Shown: positions 3,474 through 30,057 of the stretch, piece by piece
Position numbering within the stretch: position 1 is the stretch's first letter
How the letters are laid out: the number at the start of each line of letters is the position of its first letter
Source of the DNA: Hypericum androsaemum
Taxonomy: Eukaryota > Streptophyta > Magnoliopsida > Malpighiales > Hypericaceae
Length of the DNA stretch: 64,000 nucleotides
Direction: 5' to 3'
NCBI GenBank assembly: GCA_963995505.1
Contig: OZ023197.1
Span: 293,001 to 357,000, forward strand
The notes under the pieces: generated by a model
Told to the model about the DNA's origin: nothing
Databases searched by the model: none
Seen by the model: the letters and a program-made list of their open reading frames with translations, nothing else
Made by a program: the position numbers and the translations under genes

Positions 3474-4071
3474 AATGTTTTAAAAATTACGGTCCGACCG
3501 GTGGTTGGACTGGTCAGATAGCTACCCAGGATCAAACCCGGGTCGATTTTTACCTAAAATCCAACCAGCAGTTCGACCGGCTAAAATCCGGTCAGACCGT
3601 CTGGTCAGGTCCTTCCGGGTGACCCAGCTCACCCATATCATAAAATTTTGTGTTTATTTTTTCATTTTATCAGATTTAATTTAGAAAAAACTGTAACTTC
3701 CACGCTCAGAGAGTATACATCACTTTTGGATCACAATAAAATTATTTTTTTAACAATTCTCGATAATATGTCAACTAAGTTAAACGAATTGGACTAATAT
3801 ATCGAACAAAAAAACTTGTATAATCATCTTCTTGAATTTCTAGACTTGTTTAATTAATATTTGATGACTTTGTTTGGATAAATTATATTAGAAAGTTGCT
3901 AAATATTTGAATTTATTTGGTATTTTATCATTTTTAAGCTAAATTAAATTTATTAAACCTTATTTTATAATATTAATATAAAATAGAAGTTCCGCTCCGA
4001 CCGATGGTCTGACCGGTCGGACTGGACAAACCAGAAATTTTAAAAATTCCGGGTCGGTTTTAAAAATATTG
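3474..4071. mobile_element. MULE-type MITE with GGTCCGACCGGT subterminal repeats
   Basis: A 598-bp noncoding element flanked by a perfect 9-bp duplication, GTTAATGCC (3465-3473 and 4072-4080). The ends are inverted (AATGTTTTAAAAA and TTTTAAAAATATTG). Just inside are repeated CCGACCGG/GGTCGGAC words. It sits inside the FLA-unit sequence CTAGTTAATGTCTACTACT. A relative lies at 35541-36004. Confidence 0.75.
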
Positions 4072-4223
4072 GTTAATGCCTATTACTCAGAGGATAATAT
4101 TGGTTTTTTACGTTTTCTAGTTAATGTCTAGTTCTAGGGTGATAAGAGTAGGATTATCCTAATTATGTCATTATCATCGAATTTCCGTCATGATATTGTT
4201 AATATTATCTTCCGTCACTTGCT

Positions 4224-4230
4224 TATATAA
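4224..4230 (+). promoter_or_regulatory. TATA box of hairpin locus A
   Basis: TATATAA followed by CGGGAGCCTC and CAGCTCCTT. The same block precedes hairpins B, C and D, so the four loci share a core promoter. Confidence 0.55.
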
Positions 4231-4430
4231 CGGGAGCCTCCCAGCTCCTTCATTTTGTATAGACAAATAGCCTCGTAGAGAAAAATCTGGAAGGAAGCAA
4301 AATAAAGAAAAATAGCCTCCTTCATTTTGTACAAATAGTACTTCAAACTTGGAAACAAGCATAAAGAAATTAACGATAATTTTTTATCTTTTGAGCTGTA
4401 CTACCGGATCAGTTGTTCAGTCTTTTCTGG

Positions 4431-4552
4431 ACTACACTTATTATCACGAGGCACATCGCCCCTTGCAAGTATCATATATATGGAAATATTATATATCCTA
4501 ATTTTTTGATGCTTGCATGAGACGATGTATCTCAAGATAATGAATTGTAACA
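4431..4552 (+). ncRNA. Hairpin A, candidate MIRNA precursor
   Basis: About 122 nt that fold into one stem. The 5' arm (4434-4475, with TTATTATCACGAGGCACATC) pairs with the 3' arm (4508-4550, with GATGTATCTCAAGATAATGA) almost throughout, with a few single mismatches and an AT-rich loop. The 21-nt 3'-arm product most like a miRNA (5' U) would be 4513-4533. The 3' arm is antisense to the frameshifted FLA at 2606-2638: 32 of 33 positions pair, three as G:U. I do not recognise the sequence as a conserved plant miRNA. Stem pairing was checked by hand only. Confidence 0.7.
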
Positions 4553-4966
4553 ACCACATCATATACGTGGAGAAAGACTTATTTTTACTTGGAATGAACA
4601 TGAAGAAAGACTTATTTTGCGTCCTCCAGGAGGAGACTTTTTTTCCTTTTCTTGCGGGGTTTTCTTTCATTAGGGGCGAAATTTGGGTACCAAGGTACTT
4701 ATTTTTACTGTTTGTTTATTAATAAAATTTAATTATAAAAAAAATTGACATGGAGAAAGACTATGGAATTCAGTTCTTATGCTTTAGATTGAAGTTATTA
4801 ATTTGATATCTTATAACCCTGATGGGTTGTTTTTTAAAGATTGATAATGTATCTTGTGTTTATACATTTTCAAAAGATTGGTTAAAGATAGCACTGCAAA
4901 TTCTTAGATCAAGAAGCGGCCTCGATGGGCTGTTTGTCAACCCTCAGACATTCAATCGAGAAAATG

Positions 4967-5251
4967 TTTCTACATTAGAATCTCATTCAAAGGTAAACTG
5001 GGAAATCGAGAGCAAACTAGTCAACTGGACGTTGTCGTCCCGCTGGAGATGGAAAAGAATTCTACAGTTCGGACTATGGCAGCACCTCGATTAGGCATGT
5101 TTCATTGAGCCACTCTGCTCAAGTGAGAGAGTGGACGTGATTTCGCACGACCAGACACTGCCATAGTCCGGAATGTAGTATTCTTTTCCATCTCCGTCGA
5201 GCTTGCTCTAGATTTCCCAGTTTGCCGTTGGATGAGATTCTAATGTAGAAA
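4967..5251. repeat. Long imperfect inverted repeat in an FLA remnant
   Basis: Left arm 4967-5082 and right arm 5158-5251 are reverse complements over about 90 bp. Shared blocks are TTTCTACATTAGAATCTCAT, AAACTGGGAAATC, GGAGATGGAAAAGAAT and CGGACTATGGCAG. The left arm holds about 22 extra bases. The spacer is 75 bp. The outer end is the FLA 3' UTR block GATTCTAATGTAGAAA, and the sequence just before (4920-4960) is a remnant of the FLA C-terminal coding part. A transcript would form a hairpin of about 285 nt. Confidence 0.75.
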
Positions 5252-5610
5252 AATTTTCTGGCTTTTGTTAGTTGACCTTAATTGACCTCTCCATGATGTT
5301 GATTTTGTAAGTTCTTCGCAACCACTACTCGACTCAGTCATTAATTGTTAAGGCCTGATTGATGATTGGCCTTGATCTGGGTTCTATCTGGTTTTTTAAT
5401 AGTAGTATTATCCCATGCCTTGTATTTAGGATAGTTGACATAGTTCTAGTTAATGTCTACTACTAAGGGGATACTATTCCTTTATTTTTTCTGTTTTTAG
5501 ATGACTGCGTTAATGTTAAGCAAATTGCTGATTAAAAAAAAAGAAAGAAACTAGCGGATTTTCAATTGTTGTGATATTGTTAGTATTATCTTTTTGACTT
5601 GATACTTGCT

Positions 5611-5617
5611 TATATAA
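5611..5617 (+). promoter_or_regulatory. TATA box of hairpin locus B
   Basis: TATATAA in the conserved block TTGCTTATATAACGGGGAGC. It lies about 90 bp before the hairpin, the shortest spacing of the four loci. Confidence 0.55.
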
Positions 5618-5699
5618 CGGGGAGCCTCTCAGCTCCTTTGTTTTGCATTGGAAAATCATCCCGGAGAGAAAAAAAATTTGCAGAATATAGAATTCAAGG

Positions 5700-5822
5700 A
5701 CTACTCATATTATCCCGATGCACATTGTCCCATGCAAGCATCATATATATGGATATATCATATCCTCATCTCTTGATGCTTGCTTGGGACGATGTGCCTC
5801 AAGATAATGAAGTGTAATAACA
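5700..5822 (+). ncRNA. Hairpin B, candidate MIRNA precursor
   Basis: Second copy of the stem-loop. The 5' arm has TTATCCCGATGCACATTGTC, the 3' arm GACGATGTGCCTCAAGATAA. The arms pair over about 40 bp with scattered mismatches. Substitutions relative to hairpin A occur in both arms and largely keep pairing. The candidate 5'-U product on the 3' arm is 5780-5800. The 3' arm is antisense to the intact FLA at 21555-21581, with 22 Watson-Crick and two G:U positions of 27. Confidence 0.7.
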
Positions 5823-5984
5823 ACCAGAAGACATTGAAATTTAGATTGAAGTTATTATTAATTCAGTATCTTAATCCTTATGATTGCTTTTTTAAGGAAG
5901 CCTTAGGAATGATTAGAGGATAATGAATCCTCTGTGTGTAGATTTTCTAATGACTTGGTTGCGACTGTGATTCTGAGATTGGTG

Positions 5985-6180
5985 AAAGATAGCACTTTAA
6001 ATTGTTAGATCAACAAGCGAGGCCAGGAAAGGCTGGTTGAAAGAATTGGTCAATCTCGAAGACAGGTTCCTTATGTTATCAGCTCTTTGTTTCTCTACCT
6101 TTTCTGAAACTTTATAGGTCTAGATTACTGCAATTGTAAGATGAGATTCCTCCTGAATCCTAATGTTATTTAGGAGGACA
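5985..6180 (+). pseudogene. FLA 3'-end remnant
   Basis: AATTGGTCAATCTCGAAGAC near 6045 matches the FLA codons for DLVNLEDGF. It then jumps by an internal deletion to TTATCAGCTCTTTGTTTCTC and CTTTATAGGTCTAG, the FLA C-terminus and 3' UTR. There is no open frame. Confidence 0.6.
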
Positions 6181-6999
6181 AATATTCAATGTTTTTACTT
6201 TCGAAACGAGTTGATGTTAATGTTGGAATGAAAGTTGGATGTAGGATTAGGTTCCTGATTTGGTGAAATTCTATGTTCCACCAGTACCTGATTGATGATG
6301 ATGTTCTTCTGCTGTTAGATTGAAGTCATTGAGCCGTATTATATTAGCCAACGTTAAGCTTGTGGCTTAGGAATTGTTGGCTTTCTATGCCTTGGAGTTC
6401 TTGGGTCACACCGTCTGGGGTTTACATGTTTTTGCTTCTGGAATGGTAACCTGCATGGGTTCTAAGGTTTTAGGTAAAATTTAGGAGTTGGGTGGTCATG
6501 ATTGATGATTGATTCTATATGGTATGGTTTTTTGTTATATTTTTTTTTTTCCAGGGCTTTTTGGGTATTAGATGTATTCTTTCGATTGGGTCCAGAATAA
6601 GTCCAGCAGCACCCACACGGACAAGAAAAAATGAGTCGTGCGCCTTAAATGACAATTTGGAATATATGAGATTACATTGGAAATTTATAATTGTTACAAT
6701 GTAAATGACACTCCAAATATATGATCTAGTTAATGTATGCTGCTTAGAGGATAATATTGCTTGATTTTTTTACGTTTTTCGATGACTGCGTTAATGTTAG
6801 GCCAATTGCCGATAGTATAGAAATTAGGCGCAATTTCAGGTCAGGTATTCGATTAGCTTCCCATGGAATTCCTGATTAGTAGTAAAGTTCTAGGGTGATA
6901 AGAATAGGATTATCCAAATTATCATTGCCATTTTCATTGAGTTTATGTTGTCATGTGTTAGTATTAGATGTGACAAGGTTTCTCGTGATTGTGAGATTG

Positions 7000-7330
7000 G
7001 TTAATAGATAGAACTGAAAATTCTTAGATCAAGAAGCGAGGCCAGGAAAGGCTGGTTGAAAGAATTGGTCAATATCGGAGACAGGTTCGTTTTGGAAGGT
7101 GTATGGTCAGCCTAAGAAAGGGTGCAGGCAGGTGGAGTGAGTGTTCCTCCTGGTTAATAGCGGGAACGAATGGCATGTCGTCGTTCATGGTCTCGACGGG
7201 CTGTTTGTCAAGCTTCGGACGTTCAATGGAGCTGCTGTTTGACAAGTTCTTGATTGGTGCAGGGAGTCTTCTAGTTAATGTTATCAGTTGTTTGTAAATT
7301 TAAGGTTTCTGGTATCCGTACAATGGGCTA
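7000..7330 (+). pseudogene. FLA 3'-end remnant
   Basis: Contains AGAATTGGTCAATATCGGAG, GGAACGAATGGCATGTCGTC, CATGGTCTCGACGGGCTGTT and TTCTTGATTGGTGCAGG. They match, in order, the FLA1 codons for DLVNLEDGF, SEWLVVHGL, HGLF and ILIGAG and then the 3' UTR. The frame is lost. Unlike the intact FLA, this copy keeps the ILIGAG-type tail seen in the first FLA gene, so it descends from that type. Confidence 0.7.
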
Positions 7331-7894
7331 AAAATTGGTAGTGATCTGTTGTTGCAATGATTTTTCCGGGCCATCGCCCATTATGATCGAGTATATGTTA
7401 AAGAAGTGATTGGTAGTGGTCAGTGGTTTATTCCAAGATTAAAAAGCTCGGATTATTTACAAGATGAGAGATTAGTGATTAATGAGGAAGATAGTTGTTG
7501 GGGAAGAGAGACAAATCTGCAGAAGTGCTGCAACTTTCTGCAGCAAAACAGGGGAGGTTGCAGACTCGCGGTTGATCTGCTGCTGCTGCTGCATAATTCT
7601 TCACATGTTCTTCTGATTCTTCAACACCATTCCTTGTGTTTTACGTTTTTAGAAGATTGCGTTAATGTTACACACACCAATTTTCGACATGATAAGGATA
7701 ATCTAATATGGATGATCTAGGATTCTTGTTGGTATTATCTCATTCCTTGTATTTAGGATAGCTTACTTGTTCTAGTTAATGTCTACTACTTTGAGGATAA
7801 TATTCCTTAATGTTTTTAAGATTACTGCGAGGATTAGCTTCGCATGCAATTCTCTATTAGTAGTAAAATTTTATAGGATTATCTTAATTATGAT

Positions 7895-7959
7895 CATGTT
7901 ATTGTTAGTATTATCTTTTTTTTTAGGGGTTAAAAAAAGATAATACTAACAATAACATG
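7895..7959. repeat. Perfect 28-bp inverted repeat
   Basis: CATGTTATTGTTAGTATTAT plus a T-run (7895-7922) is exactly repeated in reverse complement at 7932-7959, with a 9-bp loop. The repeated word is the unit's own TGTTAGTATTATC block, which occurs again at 7971-7986 just before TATA box C. Confidence 0.85.
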
Positions 7960-8004
7960 ATTATCTTGCTATTGTTAGTATTATCTTGTTATCCCTTTTC
8001 ACCT

Positions 8005-8011
8005 TATATAA
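8005..8011 (+). promoter_or_regulatory. TATA box of hairpin locus C
   Basis: TATATAA followed by CAGGAGCCTC, in the same context as loci A, B and D, about 140 bp before the hairpin. Confidence 0.55.
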
Positions 8012-8142
8012 CAGGAGCCTCTTTATTTTGTATCAGAAAAGCGTCATGGTGAAAGAAAAGAAGGAAGCGAGATAAAGAAATATATTTTCGGAGTTGATGT
8101 CGTTCAACGAGGGAGGAAAATCTACGGATGCAGAATTCAAAG

Positions 8143-8272
8143 GACTACTCTTATTATCCCGAGGCATATTCCTCCCTGCAAGCATCATATACATGGATGT
8201 ATCATATCCTCCCTTCTTGATGCTGATGCTTGGAGGGAGGAAATTTGCCTCAAGATAACCAAGAGTAATAGC
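8143..8272 (+). ncRNA. Hairpin C, candidate MIRNA precursor (diverged)
   Basis: Third copy. The 5' arm has GAGGCATATTCCTCCCTGCA and the 3' arm GGAGGGAGGAAATTTGCCTC. The central part differs from A, B and D, yet the two arms changed together and still pair. The candidate 3'-arm product is 8230-8251. Match to either FLA gene is weaker here than for A and D, so this copy may have drifted to other targets or lost function. Confidence 0.65.
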
Positions 8273-8399
8273 AATATTATACAGACGGAGCTAAAGACTC
8301 TGAAGATTAATTTTTTTTTATATCTTAAGTTTATGATTAAAGGAAGTCTTATGATTGATTAGGAGGACGTGATTGAGTGACTGGTTAAAGATAGATTGT

Positions 8400-9420
8400 T
8401 CAATATGATAATTAAGAGAATGGGGTTTATGATTTGATGAAAACTTCACGTTGCACCGGTTGCTGGTACATAGAAAACTATTGCACTTTTAGGCCACCAA
8501 ATTTGGCTTCTTCAACAACTATATCACAAGGAATACTCCATATTTAGCATTGGAATTCAGTCTAATTTCATATTTATCGTGAAAAACTAATAGTTGTGTT
8601 ACAAAGTTTTTTAGCCCAACCATACAAGGCGTCGTAAATATTTAGAAGGTCTGGATTTCAAACTCTAACATATGTCATAGTATCAAATATACCTTTTTAA
8701 AAAAACTAATAGGTATGTCTCGATAGTTTGGTCACATGAACAAACATATTATTAAATCTGAGAAATTAGACTCCAAATCGCACATACCAACTACTAAATC
8801 AAATAACATTCCCTTTTTTAAAAAAATCAAATAACCTTCAGAAAAACTATTAAATCAAAAGGAGTAACATCTTGAAGCTTGTGTGTAACGAAGTTGAGCA
8901 GATTGTTTTAACATCTTCTTCTTCTTCTTCTTTTTTTGGACAAAAAATGACATCTTTTTTTCATTTTTTTCGAAAACCTGTGACATCCTAGTCTTCATTT
9001 TCTGGAAAACGGTAACGCCATGTTCTTCATTTTCCAGAAAAGTAGTGAAATCTTCTCCATCTTATCTCCACGCGTATTTGTTACGCTAAAATCTTAATTG
9101 GCTACTAATTTTTTGGGTAAGCAATGAGATAAGTTAGTTTGCTTCTCTTAATATACAAAGGGGGAATCGAGAGCCATGAACTTTAGTACAAGTCACTGTA
9201 TTTAATACAACTAATCAATTAGGACGACTAATAAGAAAAAGTTTAAGAAGGTTGAATTAAATATTGTATTATCGCCGACCACAAAGATTTGATAAGAATG
9301 GTTAAATCATGAACCTGCCTATAAATCAAACAAAATAAATAAACAAATAATACAGAGCTATATATATTTGTATTTCGAAAAATCTTTCCAGTCTGCCTTA
9401 TATTAAAGGTACTAAAAATT
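8400..9420. repeat. Duplicate of the FLA upstream region
   Basis: No gene. Blocks match, in the same order, the region 18890-20460 upstream of the intact FLA: TTGCACCGGTTGCTGGTAC (near 8455), a TTCTTCTTCTTC/TTTTCCGGACA-like block (8920-9030), GCTTCTCTTAATATACAAAG (9140) and CCACAAAGATTTGATAAGAA (9280) with CCTGCCTATAAATC. A whole promoter-plus-gene unit was therefore duplicated, and the FLA remnant at 9528-9830 is what remains of its gene. Confidence 0.65.
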
Positions 9421-9527
9421 CAATGGTAACAAAGTTAAAGATTACTTGTGCAGAATCTAAACTGCTAGTTGTTGAGAAAGTCAACACTATGGAAAGAATA
9501 ACAATTACCAACTCCAAAAACAAACCC

Positions 9528-9622
9528 GTCTTCGAAATTAACCAATTCGCGCCGCCAATGCTGTCAGATCAAGAAGCAAGACCACGAATGGCTGGCGGCG
9601 CGAACTGGTCAATCTCGAAGAT
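9528..9622. ncRNA. FLA-derived hairpin, second inverted duplication
   Basis: Left arm (about 9528-9560, CGAAATTAACCAATTCGCGC then CGCCA) pairs with right arm (about 9589-9622, TGGCGGCGCGAACTGGTCAA then TCTCGAAG) over about 30 bp with few mismatches. The right arm and its continuation correspond to the FLA codons for DLVNLEDGF, directly after the segment used by hairpins A-D. The left arm is the antisense of the same stretch. The loop has TCAGATCAAGAAGCAAGACC. There is no evidence of transcription. Confidence 0.6.
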
Positions 9623-9830
9623 AGGTTCTTTTTGGGGAGCTATATGATCAGCCTAGGAAAGGCTGCAGGTGGAGTAATCATTGGGTTTAGGAAGCACCAT
9701 ATATATTTATAAAAGAAATTCCTGGCCATCCTCCTGCTGGAGATTGAAGTCATTGGGTTTCTATTATGATATGGATTGTTTCTAGACGAAGTGAATGTTA
9801 TCTGATCTGGGTTCATTGATGATTTGGTCA
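9589..9830 (+). pseudogene. FLA 3'-end remnant with deletion
   Basis: CTGGTCAATCTCGAAGATAG is followed by GGAGCTATATGATCAGCCTA and a 3' UTR-like stretch (GATTGAAGTCATTGGGTTTC). It matches the remnants at 7070-7140 and 22130-22200. Confidence 0.55.
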
Positions 9831-10125
9831 TGATCTAGTTTCTATCTGATTTATTTATTTATTTTTAGAATAGAATATATTTATACGGTCCAAATTACGA
9901 ATTGCGTGGAGCATGATAAGGATGGCATAATATTGGATTATCAAGGATTCTTGTTGATATTATCTCATGCCTAGTATTTAGGATGGCTTACTTGTTCTAG
10001 TTAATGTCTACTACTTAGAGGATGATATTATTTCTTTAATGACTGCGTTAATGATGGTATTAGGCTGATAAGAATATGATTATTGTCTTAATTATTGTCG
10101 TAATATCCTTTTTTACTTCATACTT

Positions 10126-10134
10126 TATATATAA
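10126..10134 (+). promoter_or_regulatory. TATA box of hairpin locus D
   Basis: TATATATAA followed by CGGGAGCCTCTCGGCTCCTT, the shared core promoter, about 130 bp before the hairpin. Confidence 0.55.
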
Positions 10135-10258
10135 CGGGAGCCTCTCGGCTCCTTTATTTTGTATCAGAAAATTGTCATGGAGAAAGAAAAGAAGAAGAAA
10201 GAAAAGTATTTTTAAAGTTGAAGGCCTTCAACGAAGGAGGAGGGTTCAGAATCCAAGA

Positions 10259-10378
10259 ACTACTCTTATTATCACGAGACACATCATCCCATGCAAGCAT
10301 ATATTATATATATATGATATGCTAGCTTTTTTATGCTTGCAGGGGATGATATGCCTCAAGATAATGAAGTGTAATAGT
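10259..10378 (+). ncRNA. Hairpin D, candidate MIRNA precursor with best FLA match
   Basis: Fourth copy. The 5' arm (TTATTATCACGAGACACATC then ATCCCATGCAAGCATA) pairs with the 3' arm (TATGCTTGCAGGGGATGATA then TGCCTCAAGATAATG) over about 40 bp. The 3' arm 10335-10361 is antisense to the intact FLA at 21555-21581: 26 of 27 positions pair (23 Watson-Crick and three G:U), and the one mismatch is terminal. The candidate 21-nt 5'-U product is 10338-10358. A 16-bp perfect palindrome (GTTGAAGGCCTTCAAC, 10217-10232) lies just upstream. Confidence 0.75.
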
Positions 10379-10497
10379 CGCATCATATATATAGAGCTAA
10401 AAAGTATGAAATTCAGTTCCTGTATTACAAATTGAAGTTACTGTTTCGATAACTTATGATTGCATTTTTTAATGAAAATATTATTATTGATTAGGAG

Positions 10498-11084
10498 TGA
10501 CGGTTTTGACGCGTAATTAACAAGTAATTACGTGTTAAATCCGTTTAATTAACAAACTAATTCGTTAATAATAAATCACTCACTTCTTGAAACAAGAGGT
10601 CCACAGGCTCGGGTCCACAATTTCTTCGTGCTAGTCGAATTACGATCACGATTTAACAGATTCGTAATTGATTTTCACGAGATTTCCTCTATAGAAAATC
10701 TGATCAAAATTCAGGAACTAATCCGGAATTTTTCCTTTCTTATTGAGTGGTTGTGGGAAAAGTTACAAATTGGTCCAGCCAGATTTCCCTTTTTATAGGG
10801 AAATCCGGACAACCAAAATGCGCCACGTGGCATGCCACGTGTCGCGCATGGCTGCCACATGGCACTTTTAGGCCACACGTCTGCCACGTGGCAAGGCTAC
10901 CCCTAGCTTTGCCACGTGGGCTGTCACATATGGCGTCAGTGCCATATCACGCTGACGTGGCGCTTACGTGGCTTCAGGCCAGTCAATGCGGGTTGACCGG
11001 CCCATTCGACCCAGCTTATGGGCCTAATGGGCCCGGGCCCAATTAGGCACAATAATAATTGCCTAATGGGCCCAAGGTCCAACA
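10498..11084 (-). repeat. Copia 3' LTR, 587 bp
   Basis: Left LTR in window coordinates. It holds a block absent from the other LTR, which includes a minus-strand TATAAAAAGGG (about 10786-10796), and several CCACGTGG words (10824-10920). Confidence 0.9.
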
Positions 11085-18234: not shown

Positions 18235-18771
18235 TGACGGTTTTGACGCGTAATTAACAAGTAATTATGTGTTAAACCTGTTTAATTAATAAACTAATTC
18301 GTTAATAATAAATTACTTACTTGTTGAAGCAAGAGGTCCACAGGCTCGGATCCACAATTTCTTCGTGCTAGTCGAATTACGATCACGATTTAACAGATTC
18401 GTAATTAATTTTCACAAGATTTCCTCTATAGAAAATCTGATCAAAATTCAGGAACTAATCCAGAATTTTTCCTTTCTTATTGAGTGGTTGTGGGAAAAGT
18501 TACAAATTGGTCCGCCACGTGGCACTTCGGACCACGTGGCACTTTGGGGCCGCATGTCCGCCACGTGGTAAGGCTACCCCTAGCTTTACCACGTGGCGCC
18601 ATGTGGACTGCCACATATGACGTCAACGCCACGCCACGCTGACGTGGCGCTTGCGTGGCTTCGGTCCGATCAACGCGGGTTGACCGGCCCATTCAACCCA
18701 ACTTATGGGCATAATGGGCCCGGGCCCAATTAGGCACAATAATAATTGCCTAATGGGCCCAAGGTCCAACA
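18235..18771 (-). repeat. Copia 5' LTR, 537 bp
   Basis: Right LTR, next to the primer binding site, so this is the promoter LTR. It lacks the block with TATAAAAAGGG present in the 3' LTR; the flanking sequence joins directly at about 18513. G-box-like CCACGTGG words are present (18514-18600). Confidence 0.9.
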
Positions 18772-18776
18772 AGGAG

Positions 18777-19330: not shown

Positions 19331-20830
19331 GTAAGATGGTCAAGGACTAATGTATGCGGCTACAACGTTTCTGTTGGAAGTTACATTGAAGTTATTGGGT
19401 TGGTGTTCAGTTATTATGTTACAATGTCGTGCTCGAACTCGATGTGTATTCAATTGGTACGTGCAACTCCATCCCAAGCAATTCTACATATAACAGACTA
19501 TTTCTAATAGTATCAGAACTATACTAGAAAACAAACAAAATGTAGAAATCAGATTACAGAAATAAAACACTAGAGTACCAACTACCCTCATTATCAACAG
19601 ACAAACTGCTGAATTAGTGAAACCAAGAGCTGCAAGCCGATGTGCAATGGAGTTGAGAAGAATGTTTAACCTCTTCTTCGGTTTTTCGACAATCTGGGAC
19701 ATCTTATTCTTCATTTTCCTTCTTCGTTTTCCGGACAAACTGTGACACCTTGTTCTTCATTTTCTGACAAAATAAAGACATCTTCTCCGTGAATCCCATC
19801 TTTGGAGAACACCAAAATTCTTTGCAATTCAGTAAATTGTGTGTAAGGAATGAGAGATAAGTTAGATTGCTTCTCTTTATATGCAAAGGGGGAATCGAGA
19901 GCAATGACGTTTAAAATTCACCCCATTAATTTTTGTGGAAGAGTATTCAATGTATCTATTAATTTGGCTCTCGGAAATTGTAAGAGGACTTTAATAAAAT
20001 AATAATCAAGGAGAAGTCAATTCATTTTTTCCCTATTTACTCGGCGCAAATTTTTTTTTTGAGGATCGCGCAAATATTTATTTCACTCTCTCCTTTTCAT
20101 GGTTTCCTCGACAATTTTAATTCCATATTATTTAATGCCTGTACCTGAAATCTGCAAGAAATAAATGAAACCTAACTGGACCTATCATTTACCCCCTTTA
20201 ATAACTAATCAGCGAGGTTGAACATGGAGTAATTTTATCAAGTCATAATATTTAGATCACTCACTTTTGAATAAAACTTAAGATAAAAAGTAAACCATGT
20301 AGACTTATTATAAAATTACCATTCGATAAATCTTAACAATTTGGTATACCTTGGTGTAGTTAAATAAAATATTGTATTTAAACCTACCACAAAGATTTGA
20401 TGAGAATAGTTAAATCATGACCCTGCCTATAAATCAAACAAAATAAATAAATAATTCATGAGACTTTCATTTGTCTACTTGGGAACTTAATTAATTATCA
20501 CAACATCGCATATTTTTACATGAAAGCTTCCCCATTATTAGGATAATATTTCAGTCGGGAAACTTTTAAACTCAATGTGTCATGTCACAAAGAAAAATGA
20601 AAAATCAAATATGTTTATAAAAAAGCAGGGTCAATTTGGTCATTCAACTCTAATCGCGCTTAACCGAATCCCCAATCCAGACTCTTAACCGCCTAAGCCC
20701 ATCAACGGATCAGATGCATCCACGTGTTCTCCAGTTCCCGCCAAAACCCATCTCAACCAAAATACCGTTAATAAACTCCTTTCTCATCTCCAGCTTTCCC
20801 AATCCAAAAGGAAAACTGTCCCCAAGAAAA
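19331..20830 (+). other. Upstream region of the intact FLA
   Basis: No other gene is seen. The part to about 20460 matches the duplicate at 8400-9420. A possible TATA box (TATAAAAAAG) lies at 20617, about 210 bp before the start codon. The stretch 20640-20830 is unique and pyrimidine-rich. Confidence 0.45.
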
Positions 20831-21790
20831 ATGGCAGCAACCAGAAGAACTCTTCCCCTTCTCCTCACCTTCCTCCTGACCCCGGCCGTCCCCTTCACAG
20901 CCTCCATCCCCATCGAGACTCTTCGCGCCGCCACGGATTCCCTCCCGGGCTCCGGCCACCTCTCCATGTTCCTAACCCTGCAGCTCCTCTCCAACTCCAT
21001 GATAGTCTCCCGCTCTCCTTCCCTGACCATCTTCTCCCTTTCCGATGCCGCCTTTTTTCGGTCCGGCCAGCCATCCATCTTCCTCCTCCTCTACCACTTC
21101 ATCCCCTTCTCGTTCCACTCCACTTCCCTCCAATTCCTCCCAATAGGGTTCAAGATCCCCACTCTTTTGGCCAACCATTCCCTAGTGGTCACCTCCAATG
21201 CCGCCAACTCACCACACGACACTACGCTCTCGATAAACGGTGTCAAGGTCAATAAAGTTCCGATCTTTGACAATGGCTTCCTTGTCATTCTCGGAATTGA
21301 CCATTTTTTCGATATGGGTTTCGATCTGAGGCCTAATGGGAATCTTGGCTGCCCTCTGAGCGTTTCTAGAGACGTTTACTATGCGCTTAAGGATGCTAGC
21401 CAGGAGCTGAGAACAAAAGGGTTCTCTATTGTGGCCTCCTTGCTTGATCTCCTTGTGGTGGGGTTCAAGGAGAACGGTACAAGGTTAACTATCTTTGCAC
21501 CTGCTGATGAGGTGATTAGAGGATACTATTTCAAGGACCACTCGTCGTCGGCTTTCTTGAGGCATATCGTTCCTTGCAAGGTTACTTGGAGCGATTTGTT
21601 CGGTATGGAAGACGGAGCAGCTTTGAAGACTTATCTGCAAGGGTATGAGATCAGCATGAAGAGATCCGGTGACGCCCTTTTCCTTAATGACGTCCCTGTT
21701 GCTTACCCGGACTTGTACCACAACGATTGGCTCGTCGTTCACGGCCTCCTCGGGATGTTTCAGAGCAGAGAAGATGCTGTTTATGGCTAA
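20831..21790 (+). CDS. FLA: Fasciclin-like arabinogalactan protein (FLA19/20/21-like)
   Basis: An intact intronless gene for 319 residues. FLAs are secreted wall or plasma-membrane glycoproteins thought to act in adhesion and wall assembly. The frame opens at 20714, but the Met at 20831 is preferred: it sits in AAAAATGGC and starts a signal peptide (TLPLLLTFLLTPAVPF). FAS1 domain 1 (about residues 30-165) has LTIFSLSDAAFF and VILGIDHFFDMG. Domain 2 (about 195-310) has LTIFAPADE, FLRHIVPCKVTW and WLVVHGLLGMF. No C-terminal hydrophobic GPI signal is seen, and the proline-rich AGP glycomodule is weak. It is paralogous to the frameshifted gene at 1897-2932. Bases 21555-21581 (codons for FLRHIVPCK) are nearly perfectly complementary to the 3' arm of hairpin D and strongly to hairpin B, which implies possible small-RNA control. 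Confidence 0.88.
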   Translation: MAATRRTLPLLLTFLLTPAVPFTASIPIETLRAATDSLPGSGHLSMFLTLQLLSNSMIVSRSPSLTIFSLSDAAFFRSGQPSIFLLLYHFIPFSFHSTSLQFLPIGFKIPTLLANHSLVVTSNAANSPHDTTLSINGVKVNKVPIFDNGFLVILGIDHFFDMGFDLRPNGNLGCPLSVSRDVYYALKDASQELRTKGFSIVASLLDLLVVGFKENGTRLTIFAPADEVIRGYYFKDHSSSAFLRHIVPCKVTWSDLFGMEDGAALKTYLQGYEISMKRSGDALFLNDVPVAYPDLYHNDWLVVHGLLGMFQSREDAVYG

Positions 21791-21869
21791 TATGGCGATA
21801 AGTGTGGTGTTCTTTGACGAAGAATTAGTCTAGCTACCATGTTTCGTTTGTTCTCTGATTCTATTGTAG

Positions 21870-22420
21870 AGAAGTTTTCTGGTATTGTTAGTTGGCCTTA
21901 TTGGTGATTGGCATTGATCTGGGTTCTATCTGGTTTTTCGTTTTATTAATTTTTCAGGGATATTTGGGTTCTTTATTAGGTGTGCCTTACATTTTGTATA
22001 GCTTACCTAGTTCTAGTTAATGTCTACTACTCAGAGGATAATAATGATTGTGAGATTGGTTTATATGATAGAACTGCAAATTGTTAAATCAAGAAAGAAG
22101 GGCAAGAAAGGCTCGTGGCGTGAATTGGTCAATCTCTAAGACAGGTTCGTTTTGGAAGGTACATGATCAGCCAAAGAAAGGCTGCAGGTGGAGTGGTCCT
22201 GTTGGTTAATGGCGGGAATCGAATGGCTCGTCCCGGCTCTGAAACATCCCGAGGAGGCCATGAACGGTGAGCCAATCGTCAGCCGGTATGCAAGACGGTG
22301 CAGCTTAACGAAGAATTAGTCTAGCTACTCTGTCTCGTTTGTTCTCTGATTGTACTGCAGAAACGTTTTCTGGTTTTGTTAGTTGGCCTTAACGACCTCT
22401 TCACGATGTTGGTTTTGTTA
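21870..22420 (+). repeat. FLA-derived unit downstream of the intact gene
   Basis: Repeats the array blocks GTTAGTTGGCCTTA, CTTACCTAGTTCTAGTTAAT and GTCTACTACTCAGAGGATAA, then an FLA remnant (AATTGGTCAATCTCTAAGAC near 22120). It ends with a second copy of the FLA 3' UTR (AACGAAGAATTAGTCTAGCT, near 22310; compare 21817). It lacks a TATA-hairpin block. Confidence 0.65.
22237..22279 (-). repeat. Inverted copy of the FLA C-terminal exon segment
   Basis: This 43-bp segment is the reverse complement of 21723-21765 in the intact FLA (40 of 43 identical; it covers the codons for NDWLVVHGLLGMFQS). It follows directly on a sense fragment (GAATGGCTCGTCCCGG). A read-through transcript of the FLA gene could fold back on itself here. 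Confidence 0.8.
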
Positions 22421-22539
22421 CTTTAGCTGCCGGTTGACTCTAGTTTACTGTTCCACAATTAGTTTGGTTTTCTCTTCACTTTCAAGCTGCTGTAAGCTAA
22501 TGGATGAAGGGATTCTGGTCAGGTCAGGGTAGACTGAAA

Positions 22540-22590
22540 AATTGAAAATTTTCGGGTCGTCTCGGTTCGCTTTTAAAAACATTAGTTGTA
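22540..22590. repeat. End fragment of the GGTCGG MITE family
   Basis: AAATTTTCGGGTCGTCTCGG then TTCGCTTTTAAAAACATTAG resembles the right end of the element at 3474-4071. Only this end is present. Confidence 0.4.
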
Positions 22591-22847
22591 ACTTCCAACG
22601 ACTTGAATTTAAATCTGACGTGCCAATAGAAAATCATCCAACTTGCAAATGTTCAGACACTTATTAGAGCCTATCAGTAACGGCCCAATTCTTGGGCTTC
22701 CCAGAACGTAAAACAAAAGCATTTTAACAACAAAAATTATGAGCTCCTTATTGCAGAATGAGGATTGGCACTGCAACAATTTGATGAGATTCTGGTAGCT
22801 TAAGAACAGTTCTCGAAGCATTCGAGGCATCGATACGAGCGGAAACA

Positions 22848-24215
22848 TCAGATGTAAGCGAGTAATTTGAAGTAGACGACAATGTACAAGGTAAGGGAGA
22901 AGAGAGCAAACACATGTTGCCAGAACAGAAGAGCAGAGGCCTCCTTAACTGCATATCCCCTCAGGCTTGCAATGGCTCCCAGCAATATCGCGCTCGGTGA
23001 CGTGTACTGCAGCAGGAGCACGAATCGGTACATATGGTCGTCTTGCACGAGAAAGTTCAGCTTACCAGCCAACGCAACAATCCCGATTCCCACAAGAGGC
23101 AGCACCAGGAGCCTCGCCACCATTACGCCAAGCGTGGTACGGAGGCCGAGTGCAGTCTCATTTGGCCCCTCGGCAAGCATTCCCCCGAGAATAAGCATCA
23201 CGGATGGGACCATAGCCCCAGCGATAATTTCTAAGCTGTCTGTGGCGAACGCAAATGGAGCGTCATGTCCAAAGAAGAAAGCTTTAACCTGAGGCACCAT
23301 TCCTATTCCGATGGCTAACAAGGAGGCAATAGTTGGAGGCTGAAGTATGTGCCGAATTGGTGTCTGTTCAGCGACTATTCTCATCCTCCTCACAACTCTC
23401 GGTTCAGCCAGACACGTGATGGACCTGGGACTGCTGCTGCTGCCACCGCCGCTTTCGGCTGCATTGAGATCAAGATCGGGGAAGTTGGTCTGGGACATGC
23501 TAGAGATGCTGTTGAAGATCCTAGCAATGAAGGGTGTCTTAGAATGCTCAGTTTCCTTATCCGCCATGCCTGGCCATTCAGCTTCCACAAGGAGAGGCCT
23601 ACTGATATCGCCAACGGTTGGCTGTTCCACGATCTCAACTCCTTCCTCGACAATCTCATAAAACTGCAGAGGAGGCTCCATCATGTGATAGACAAGAGTG
23701 TATACAAGGATCACGGCAACCCATTGCGCGAAAGACACGTAAGCCACTCCCCTGGAGTGGCAAGAGTGTCCAAACGGAGTATCTTTAGAATGACAAACCG
23801 ATCCAACAATAGCGAGTGGGAGATTCCCGGTATTCCCAAACGCGGTCATAACGATGGTGAACCTGTTAAACTGAGGAGGGGGCCGGCAAATCGCCACCAC
23901 CAACACCCCAAGCAAGAAACCGACGGCCGTGCTAACCAACACATTAACCGGAATAAACCACCAGAGCCTGATATTCTCCAGAGTCATGGATTCCCCGAGC
24001 TCGGTGAAGATCAAGCACGGCAAGAACAAGGCGAAAACCAACTTGCTGAGGAGCTTAAAGGTCGCCTTGGGGATGATCTGAGTCCTTGGATGCGCAAGGA
24101 TCAACCCAATGGTGGTCAGTGACAAGAGCTTCATCAAAGGCACCACTGCAGTTACCATGGTCGCACTACTGGACTCCATCTGCTGCACATACAGCTCGCC
24201 CAAATACCGAAACAT
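22848..24215 (-). CDS. PILS: PIN-LIKES (PILS) auxin carrier
   Basis: 455 residues, one coding exon. PILS proteins are ER membrane carriers of the auxin efflux carrier superfamily (Mem_trans domain) that limit nuclear auxin signalling by holding auxin in the ER. The N-terminal half has LLSLTTIGLILAHPRTQIIP, LSKLVFALFLPCLIFTELGE and FNRFTIVMTAFGNTGNLPLA. A hydrophilic loop (about residues 195-285, EAEWPGMADKETEHSKTPFI) separates it from the C-terminal half with LQPPTIASLLAIGIGMVPQV, MVPSVMLILGGMLAEGPN and LLLQYTSPSAILLGAIASLR. About ten membrane segments are expected. The start at 24215 is chosen because an intron acceptor (CTTTACAG) lies 8 bp upstream; the longer frame to 24257 would read through the intron. 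The layout fits the PILS2/PILS6 clade, but I cannot separate the two. Confidence 0.92.
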   Translation of the reverse strand: MFRYLGELYVQQMESSSATMVTAVVPLMKLLSLTTIGLILAHPRTQIIPKATFKLLSKLVFALFLPCLIFTELGESMTLENIRLWWFIPVNVLVSTAVGFLLGVLVVAICRPPPQFNRFTIVMTAFGNTGNLPLAIVGSVCHSKDTPFGHSCHSRGVAYVSFAQWVAVILVYTLVYHMMEPPLQFYEIVEEGVEIVEQPTVGDISRPLLVEAEWPGMADKETEHSKTPFIARIFNSISSMSQTNFPDLDLNAAESGGGSSSSPRSITCLAEPRVVRRMRIVAEQTPIRHILQPPTIASLLAIGIGMVPQVKAFFFGHDAPFAFATDSLEIIAGAMVPSVMLILGGMLAEGPNETALGLRTTLGVMVARLLVLPLVGIGIVALAGKLNFLVQDDHMYRFVLLLQYTSPSAILLGAIASLRGYAVKEASALLFWQHVFALFSLTLYIVVYFKLLAYI

Positions 24216-24610
24216 GCTTGCTTCTGTAAAGGACGGAACCAAACCAAACCAAACCAAACCAAACCAATTGTTAGGACAACAGAACCGATTACAAACGCCT
24301 TAACCCGCGACGATCATCAATATAATAACATAGCCACGGGCAACACCTAACTCCAAACACAACACAACACAACACAACTAGGGTTTCTACGAAATCAGAG
24401 AGAAACACAGATTCTGGGTCTCATCTATCTCAACGAAACAAGTACATAAAGCTCAGAAACTACAAGGAAATAGTAATTTAAAAAAAAATTAAGAAGAGGG
24501 GAAGCAAAGGAAGAGCTTACTAATCACTCGGTAATCAGATGAGGAGGAGAGAAGTGGGAGTAGCACAATCAGGAGAGAGAAATGGGAACTAAAGCTATTT
24601 ATTGCCAACT
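24216..24610 (-). other. PILS 5' leader with intron and TATA box
   Basis: On the minus strand a donor GTAAGC begins at 24520 and an acceptor TTTACAG ends at 24224, giving a 297-bp 5' UTR intron. The intron contains five GGTTT repeats near the acceptor (about 24238-24266). The leader exon (about 24521-24575) is pyrimidine-rich, and a TATA-like AATAAATAGC lies at about 24594-24603. Confidence 0.6.
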
Positions 24611-29814: not shown

Positions 29815-30057
29815 AATATAAAGAGGGAGCTCTCTCTCAGTTCAGTACGAGGCGACCATTGGCTGAAACGCGGCTACTGACTCGATGGTTCAAGAGCTCA
29901 TCACAAAGTTTATATGCACACGAGAGAGAGCCAGAGAAATTAAGGAAGAAGATTACTTGAGATGAGCCTTTTCTTGATCCATCGGAGCAGGAGCTATGTG
30001 TTAAGCTATGGCTGTCACGCCTTGGACTGAAGGGAGCTCCCTCCCTTAATAAACTTA
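29815..30057 (+). ncRNA. MIR319: MIR319 precursor
   Basis: The 3' arm carries the canonical miR319 at 30022-30042 (TTGGACTGAAGGGAGCTCCC plus T). The 5' arm has the expected opposite strand (GAGGGAGCTCTCTCTCAGTT, from 29824), and the long stem between them (240 nt overall) is typical of MIR159/MIR319. miR319 is known to guide cleavage of CIN-class TCP mRNAs (leaf growth, petals, senescence). The upper stem holds a second well-paired region (GGCTGAAACGCGGCTACTGA near 29860), as in known MIR319 genes. The transcript is on the plus strand; a TATA box lies upstream. Confidence 0.96.

Follow-up and report, generated by a model that had tools for sequence, protein, structure and literature searches.

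A tandem array of miRNA-like hairpins apparently derived from a neighbouring fasciclin-like gene in Hypericum androsaemum

Hairpins and FLA genes at the locus

The region analysed here, referred to below as the window, is a stretch of 64,000 nucleotides from Hypericum androsaemum (assembly GCA_963995505.1, contig OZ023197.1, positions 293,001 to 357,000 of the forward strand). It carries two FLA20-type fasciclin-like genes, FLA1 and FLA2, and, between them, four microRNA (miRNA)-like hairpins, H1 to H4, which probably represent a young MIRNA family derived from the lineage of FLA1. The principal features of the cluster are as follows (LTR, long terminal repeat; ORF, open reading frame).

1897–2932, + strand: FLA1, FLA20-type fasciclin-like gene of the presumed parental lineage; ORFs 1897–2457 and 2363–2932
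2591–2637, + strand: FLA1 segment whose ancestor would have yielded the hairpin arms; holds the predicted target site 2609–2630
4224–4260, + strand: putative core promoter, TATATAAC/GAGCCT block 5′ of H1; homologous blocks start at 5611, 8005 and 10128
4431–4552, + strand: hairpin H1; fold −40.2 kcal/mol, z −6.0
5700–5822, + strand: hairpin H2; fold −55.4 kcal/mol, z −8.9
6036–6107, + strand: FLA fragments 3′ of H2; alignment starts at FLA1 2638
6725–7029, + strand: hairpin-less unit, also without the TATA block; junction of the pre- and post-hairpin flanks near 6966/6971
7055–7295, + strand: FLA fragments; alignment starts at FLA1 2638
8143–8272, + strand: hairpin H3, both arms diverged; fold −57.0 kcal/mol, z −7.3
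10259–10378, + strand: hairpin H4; fold −42.9 kcal/mol, z −5.6
10498 to about 18771: LTR retroelement; TG...CA ends, direct LTRs, 5-base target duplication AGGAG
20831–21790, + strand: FLA2, FLA20-type gene with an open frame; presumed start at 20831; Pfam Fasciclin
21857–22227, + strand: hairpin-less unit 3′ of FLA2; pre- and post-hairpin flanks join near 22043–22050

A first-pass annotation made from the sequence alone had proposed four stem-loops of one layout, and both their coordinates and the common layout proved right: the consensus of H1, H2 and H4 consists of a main helix of 38 pairs and a loop helix of 6 pairs. Folding of each segment, suggested there as a check, placed all four far below their shuffled counterparts (z −5.6 to −8.9), none of the 300 dinucleotide shuffles generated per hairpin reaching the real energy. 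With 2–4 unpaired bases per duplex strand, all four have the foldback expected of a plant MIRNA. BLAST joins whole hairpins in a single piece in three of the six pairs (H1–H2, 83%; H1–H4, 79%; H2–H3, 82%) and H1–H3 over 85 nt only (79%), while the H2–H4 (67%, 459 columns) and H3–H4 (72%, 309 columns) pieces take in the promoter and leader as well. MAFFT misplaces the 3′ arm of H3, and the whole of H3 was therefore kept out of the covariance model so as to serve as its test; the model built from H1, H2 and H4 detects H3 with an E value of 1.7e-22 over the whole window. H1–H4 are also matched on the opposite strand, because the hairpins are nearly palindromic. The scan of the window found no convincing fifth copy, the remaining matches being an AT-rich inverted repeat at 7900–7957 (E 0.006) and 18712–18774 (E 0.42). 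An exact 11-nt string, unique on the + strand of the window, is common to the H3 leader (8109–8119) and the H3 3′ arm (8233–8243); the altered core of H3 is possibly a patch copied from its leader.

The hairpins had not been recognised as a known miRNA family, which agrees with our searches: H1–H4 reach the gathering score of no Rfam 15 family, the best match being 40.8 bits against a gathering score of 84 and all overlapping matches lying below half. Across the whole window, the sole family at its gathering score is the MIR159 model at 29815–30053. At E values up to 5, the interval 4000–10600 gave 29 matches, none of which reaches the gathering score; the nearest to its cut-off (54%) is a phenylalanine leader at 7898–7956. 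We rejected these permissive matches, several of which occur on either strand and involve families from animals or viruses, as structure-only chance. Twelve strings of 15–21 nt from the hairpin 3′ arms (H3 being represented by one string, in the U form only) were absent from 5.39 million open-licence full texts, with miRBase and PmiREN outside the search. Likewise, no FLA-derived miRNA was found in the open-licence literature on FLA genes and miRNAs, a survey that did not cover those two databases. Other miRNAs are described as targeting, or as being paired with, FLA15, FLA3 and one unspecified FLA (PMC8369265, PMC4956657 and PMC5811567).

FLA2, when its ORF is counted from 20714, matches Pfam Fasciclin (E 3.3e-08), and several of its homologs are annotated as 'putative fasciclin-like arabinogalactan protein 20'; its identity to any of 36 homologs is 46% at most. 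FLA1 was recognised by its similarity to FLA2, to which its two ORFs show 48% and 46% protein identity; taken alone, neither frame is matched by a Pfam family at E 0.001. The nonsynonymous and synonymous divergences (Ka 0.42, Ks 1.05, both parts of FLA1 against FLA2) point to protein constraint after the split of the two genes, though not to constraint on present-day FLA1.

Tandem units and the shared promoter block

Self-comparison of the window revealed that none of the hairpins is free-standing. Each is embedded in a repeated unit composed of an FLA 3′ fragment, FLA 3′ flank, the TATATAAC/GAGCCT block (TATA block), leader, hairpin and spacer, after which the FLA fragment of the following unit begins. 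The alignment of this fragment restarts at FLA1 position 2638, the base directly after the arm end at 2637, in two units; in two others it restarts at 2640 and 2630. The + strand of the window contains TATATAAC six times, four of these occurrences being the blocks upstream of H1–H4. Pairwise identities of the TATA block are about 90–97% (33/37, 27/29, 34/37, 26/29, 34/37 and 28/29), compared with 48–76% in the leader (28/50, 60/109, 45/93, 30/50, 33/50 and 71/93), 37–65% in the downstream flank and 48% to 88% in the 36 bases preceding the block, which presumably drives transcription of the hairpins. In the two hairpin-less units, loss of the hairpin is likelier than its never having been present. 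The retroelement, Copia-like from its ORFs by eye, has LTRs with 81% identity over 597 columns, the differences being 41 mismatches and 70 gaps. Its insertion split the unit behind H4, which therefore predates it.

Origin of the hairpin arms from the FLA1 lineage

The reverse complement of the H1 3′ arm matches FLA1 2594–2637 at 37 of 44 positions (84%, Smith–Waterman; E 2.5e-6 within the window), the H1 5′ arm matching FLA1 2591–2637 at 34 of 47. As controls, we scored against FLA1 or FLA2 a set of 3,418 60-mers, drawn from either strand at intervals of 30 bases in the part of the window that excludes the FLA region. The arm score was equalled by no control for the 3′ arms of H1 and H2, by one for H4 3′, two for H1 5′ and six for H4 5′; the corresponding numbers were 47 for H2 5′, 47 for H3 5′ and 127 for H3 3′. 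Thus, the claim that both arms of every hairpin resemble FLA is clear for H1, H4 and one arm of H2; H3 is tied to FLA chiefly through its homology to the other hairpins.

To separate the arm from the miRNA itself, we followed the procedure of Fahlgren et al. 2007 (PMC1790633; threshold p<0.001), deleting the predicted miRNA from both arm and gene and comparing the remainder with 1,000 shuffles. Against FLA1, shuffles did as well in 0 of 1,000 cases for H1 5′, 2 for H3 5′ and 3 for H2 3′. The signal was weak for H4 3′ (12/1000), H2 5′ (13/1000), H4 5′ (15/1000) and H1 3′ (32/1000), and absent for H3 3′ (127/1000). The H3 5′ arm stands out in one of the two FLA tests. Arm likeness to FLA1 hence extends beyond the miRNA, p<0.001 being reached individually by H1 only. 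Against FLA2, none of the eight arms retained convincing similarity (best 21/1000, H3 5′), and likeness to this gene appears confined to the presumed guide segment. Since three arms still resemble FLA1 and none FLA2 once the miRNA segment is removed, FLA1 represents the parent lineage. The first-pass proposal of birth by inverted duplication of an FLA segment is well supported by the arm–FLA alignments with and without the miRNA segment, together with the FLA fragments that resume at the arm end and the tandem units.

Predicted products and targets

Plant MIRNA loci are annotated by a precisely excised 20–24-nt duplex with 2-nt 3′ overhangs in small-RNA reads, and in base-to-loop processing DCL1 first cuts at a distance of about 15 nt from the stem base. 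The passages of PMC5322449 on base-to-loop cutting do not give the 15-nt distance. A structure-based register places the 5′ end of the opposite strand at a GAGGCAC-type sequence in all four hairpins, 15 nt above the stem base in H2, H3 and H4 and 20 nt in the H1 fold; as the register was picked with the 15-nt distance in mind, its agreement with the lower stem is consistency, not proof. It yields 22-nt 3′-arm products ending in CTCAA, three of the four starting with U:

4514–4535: H1 predicted 22-nt 3p product (opposite strand 4448–4469)
5781–5802: H2 predicted 3p product (opposite strand 5717–5738)
8232–8253: H3 predicted 3p product
10338–10359: H4 predicted 3p product (opposite strand 10276–10297)

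We scanned both strands of the 64 kb for targets, counting 0.5 for a G–U pair and 1 for a mismatch, doubled at positions 2–13. Outside the hairpin itself, the top match of the H1 product is FLA1 2609–2630 and that of the H4 product FLA2 21557–21578, each with a score of 3.0; the latter comprises 19 Watson–Crick and 3 G–U pairs and no mismatch in 22. Both products fit these genes better than their own opposite arms, which score 9.5 (H1) and 6.0 (H4). The H2 product fits FLA best at the same FLA2 site, weakly (5.5), and fits H1 antisense better (4.5). None of 2,000 shuffled 22-mers reached the H1–FLA1, H4–FLA2 or H2–FLA2 score in the FLA coding regions, whereas the FLA scores of the H3 product (11.0 and 11.5) lie in the shuffle range, 543 and 976 of the 2,000 being as good. 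The first-pass interpretation can be kept in part: the linkage of the array to its parent and possible targets is real, with the lineage of FLA1 rather than FLA2 as the parent, the fit of H2 is weak, and H3 fits neither gene.

Signs of selection and competing explanations

Taken together, we consider it fairly probable that H1–H4 are a young MIRNA family formed from an inverted segment of the FLA1 lineage, spread in tandem with a TATA promoter and guiding the silencing of FLA genes; as judged from sequence, the hairpins are likely to be working miRNAs, and we infer their transcription, precise processing, AGO loading and silencing activity. The events could have run as follows. In a truncated gene copy of the FLA1 lineage, a segment matching FLA1 2591–2637 would have been copied in inverted orientation, so that a 5′-truncated FLA copy became interrupted, at the point of the arm end, by a reversed duplicate of its codons. 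The hairpin promoter would have been taken from the 3′ flank of the preceding FLA copy, and the unit with its TATA-type promoter then multiplied in tandem. RNA polymerase II would transcribe each unit; a DCL1-type enzyme would use about 15 nt of lower stem as its ruler and free 22-nt duplexes, whose 3′-arm strand, antisense to FLA, would guide silencing (H1 of FLA1, H4 of FLA2, H2 weakly of FLA2), H3 having drifted off FLA.

To look for signs of selection on target pairing, we compared a 31-base core among seven arms (the H3 3′ arm was omitted because of an insertion). FLA1 has five private bases in this core, absent from FLA2 and from the arms of H2, H4 and H3 5′. H1 carries two of them in its 3′ arm (2615 and 2624) and one in its 5′ arm (2633). 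The former two are the sole bases unique to the H1 3′ arm among the seven, and both equal FLA1; of the two bases unique to the H1 5′ arm, one does. The codon of 2615 specifies the histidine of an RH-VPC motif in FLA2 and in 36 of 36 aligned homologs and tyrosine in FLA1, and that of 2624 proline in FLA2 and in 32 of the 36 and serine in FLA1. As far as the protein tells, the FLA1 bases are thus derived. The H1 3′ arm seems to have tracked these changes of FLA1 at the expense of pairing in its own stem.

In addition, mismatches to the best-fitting FLA gene across the 22-nt core are fewer in the 3′ arm (3′ versus 5′ arm, 1 versus 4 for H1–FLA1, 0 versus 2 for H4–FLA2, 2 versus 3 for H2–FLA2). 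This bias also holds for H2 against FLA1 (3 versus 4), whereas with the non-best gene it is reversed in H1 and H4 (5′ versus 3′ arm, 1 versus 3 for H1–FLA2 and 2 versus 4 for H4–FLA1). Such a pattern would agree with divided targets and does not suggest a general 3′-arm constraint. That the array hairpins have indeed divided the parent family, the H1 guide following the altered site of FLA1 and the opposite arm of H1 for the most part not doing so, H4 fitting FLA2 and H3 having departed, is a tentative and, on balance, rather unlikely extension. If true, it would mean miRNA–target co-evolution after duplication at the birthplace of the family, with target pairing selected over hairpin pairing.

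Several observations weigh against working, target-adjusted miRNAs, the reversal of the bias with the non-best gene among them. A short gene-conversion tract would give the same H1–FLA1 pattern, the numbers are small and the FLA1 frame is broken: it is interrupted near 2385–2405, through either pseudogene decay or an assembly error, and FLA1 is the best predicted target of H1. Complementarity to FLA is in part expected from descent alone. Nor does it fix the register of the products, because equal or better scores are obtained in alternative registers (2.5 for two further 22-mers of H1 that start with U, 4.0 for H2). The H1 duplex has four unpaired bases on each strand. The guide region is conserved no better than the loop among the hairpins (3p core 16–23/27, 5p core 17–22/27, loop 18–23 of 26–28 in pairwise comparisons that rest on the MAFFT alignment, by which the 3p-core figures are lowered for the three pairs with H3). 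The stretches 7688–7804 and 9912–10029, 5′ of H3 and H4, are 89% identical, compared with 72% between 8005–8304 and 10128–10410, which run from the TATA block past the hairpin. Finally, three pairs are altered on both sides among H1, H2 and H4, a number matched by 45 of 500 shuffles (28 to 47 of 500 across covariation measures, with three sequences); we rejected covariation as evidence of selection, weak as it is with only three sequences.

These points bear on the alternatives. One is that the locus is still at a proto-MIRNA or hairpin small interfering RNA (siRNA) stage, in which the transcribed repeats yield no fixed miRNA and the FLA cluster is silenced or methylated by a mixture of 21–24-nt siRNAs. 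Such stages are reported for new MIRNA loci (PMC1790633), and the cluster does hold further FLA-derived inverted repeats (9514–9636, and 22228–22279 against 21723–21774) as well as a nested repeat at 4954–5264 that folds at −172 kcal/mol across 321 nt. H1–H4 themselves, however, are short (about 120–130 nt) and imperfect and have one common layout, and their lower stem (12–16/16 in pairwise comparisons) and TATA block are better conserved than the leader and downstream sequence. We hold this explanation to be unlikely. Quite unlikely, in our judgement, is a decaying relic: the inverted FLA fragment would have multiplied by tandem duplication along with the sequence around it and would by now be neutral, its remaining complementarity being inherited. 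The absence of the hairpin from two of the six units counted, the failure of H3 to fit either FLA gene, the broken frame of FLA1, the unexceptional conservation of the guide region and flanking repeats that can exceed the hairpin part in identity would all be expected of it. It does not readily account for the 3′-arm bias of H1, H2 and H4 towards the best-fitting FLA gene, for the agreement with FLA1 of both unique bases in the H1 3′ arm as against one of two in the 5′ arm, or for the fact that H4 still folds, though its unit is older than a retroelement with considerably diverged LTRs.

Plant miniature inverted-repeat transposable elements (MITEs) form hairpins too, and many rice MIRNAs are MITE-derived (PMC3237417). 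Here, an unrelated foldback transposon of this type, inserted in both FLA and the array, has next to no chance of being the source and was rejected: the shared FLA segment is coding, with a conserved peptide (the RH-VPC histidine is retained throughout the homologs and FLA2, not in FLA1), FLA sequence restarts at the arm end in two units, and there are only four copies within the window. A young MIRNA family born from the FLA1 lineage remains the explanation that we favour.

Relationship to known MIRNA families

H1–H4 apparently constitute a new family of a known kind, sharing their general plan with MIR161, MIR163 and MIR1444. Arabidopsis MIR161 and MIR163 likewise derive from inverted duplication of protein-coding sequence and show arm similarity extending past the miRNA (PMC1790633). 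MIR1444 of Salicaceae, also a young MIRNA, targets polyphenol oxidase (PPO) genes, and its arms resemble 78 nt of these targets (PMC5223194). Its 3′ arm is closer to the target than the 5′ arm, the same bias as that towards the best-fitting FLA gene here, and its paralogues do not all regulate the same targets (PMC5223194), as is predicted for our array. Beyond the parent gene, PPO in one case and FLA in the other, the two differ in that MIR1444 spread by whole-genome duplication and the present family by local tandem duplication beside its parent. They differ also in evidence, miR1444 being backed by small-RNA reads and cleavage mapping by 5′ rapid amplification of cDNA ends (PMC5223194), whereas the evidence on H1–H4 is their sequence and predicted folds.

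Foldbacks similar to genes are described as having three fates, namely drift and death, stabilisation on the family of origin, or acquisition of a new target (PMC1790633). Stabilisation is what H1, H4 and possibly H2 resemble, whereas H3 and the hairpin-less units look like drift or a new target. Furthermore, nearly all of the 48 non-conserved families of Arabidopsis consist of a single gene (PMC1790633), in contrast to the four hairpins, two hairpin-less units and two FLA genes found here in one array. Many MIRNA families no longer carry a trace of their birth. What distinguishes this array from the literature compared is that several stages stand together with parent and paralogue: about 21 kb hold FLA1, FLA2, the broken donor copies, two hairpin-less units and four hairpins that differ in stage, and it is because of this that the succession of events may be readable, from the inverted copy through promoter capture and tandem spread to retuning and loss. 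The hairpins suggest a regulator of FLA20-type cell-surface arabinogalactan proteins.

Other features of the window

9514–9636, + strand: separate inverted repeat (proto-hairpin) with a 44-bp stem, from FLA1 about 2640–2685
29815–30053: MIR319-type precursor; Rfam MIR159 model, 75.5 bits; fold −94.3 kcal/mol

The repeat at 9514–9636 stems from the FLA segment directly 3′ of that represented in the hairpin arms; its 5′ arm is antisense to FLA1, with a best 22-mer score of 4.0. The arms of the nested repeat at 4954–5264 are 88% and 92% complementary, and, if transcribed, the repeat is likely, from its predicted fold, to be a source of siRNAs. It contains inverted FLA 3′-flank sequence. Positions 22228–22279 are an inverted copy, 52 nt long and 88% identical, of the 3′ end of the FLA2 coding region (21723–21774).

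The MIR319-type locus contains TTGGACTGAAGGGAGCTCCCT, starting at 30022, which we take to be miR319. As an ordinary conserved MIRNA in the same window, it serves as a yardstick for H1–H4: it reaches its Rfam cut-off and they reach none.

Within 20714–24257, the FLA20-type gene FLA2 adjoins a PIN-LIKES 2 gene (22848–24257). The product of the latter resembles proteins of Manihot (83%), Hevea (82%) and Euphorbia (81%), all members of the Malpighiales, and of Tripterygium, Corymbia and Eucalyptus (80%); the nearest protein among the best 120 of 829 matches is thus 83% identical. Locus numbers of the homologs hint at the same pairing of FLA20 and PIN-LIKES 2 in Hevea (P3X46_031439/031441), Erythroxylum (K2173_012760/012748) and Rhododendron (RHGRI_026790/026796), and, because these numbers suggest a shared neighbourhood, the site may be ancestral.

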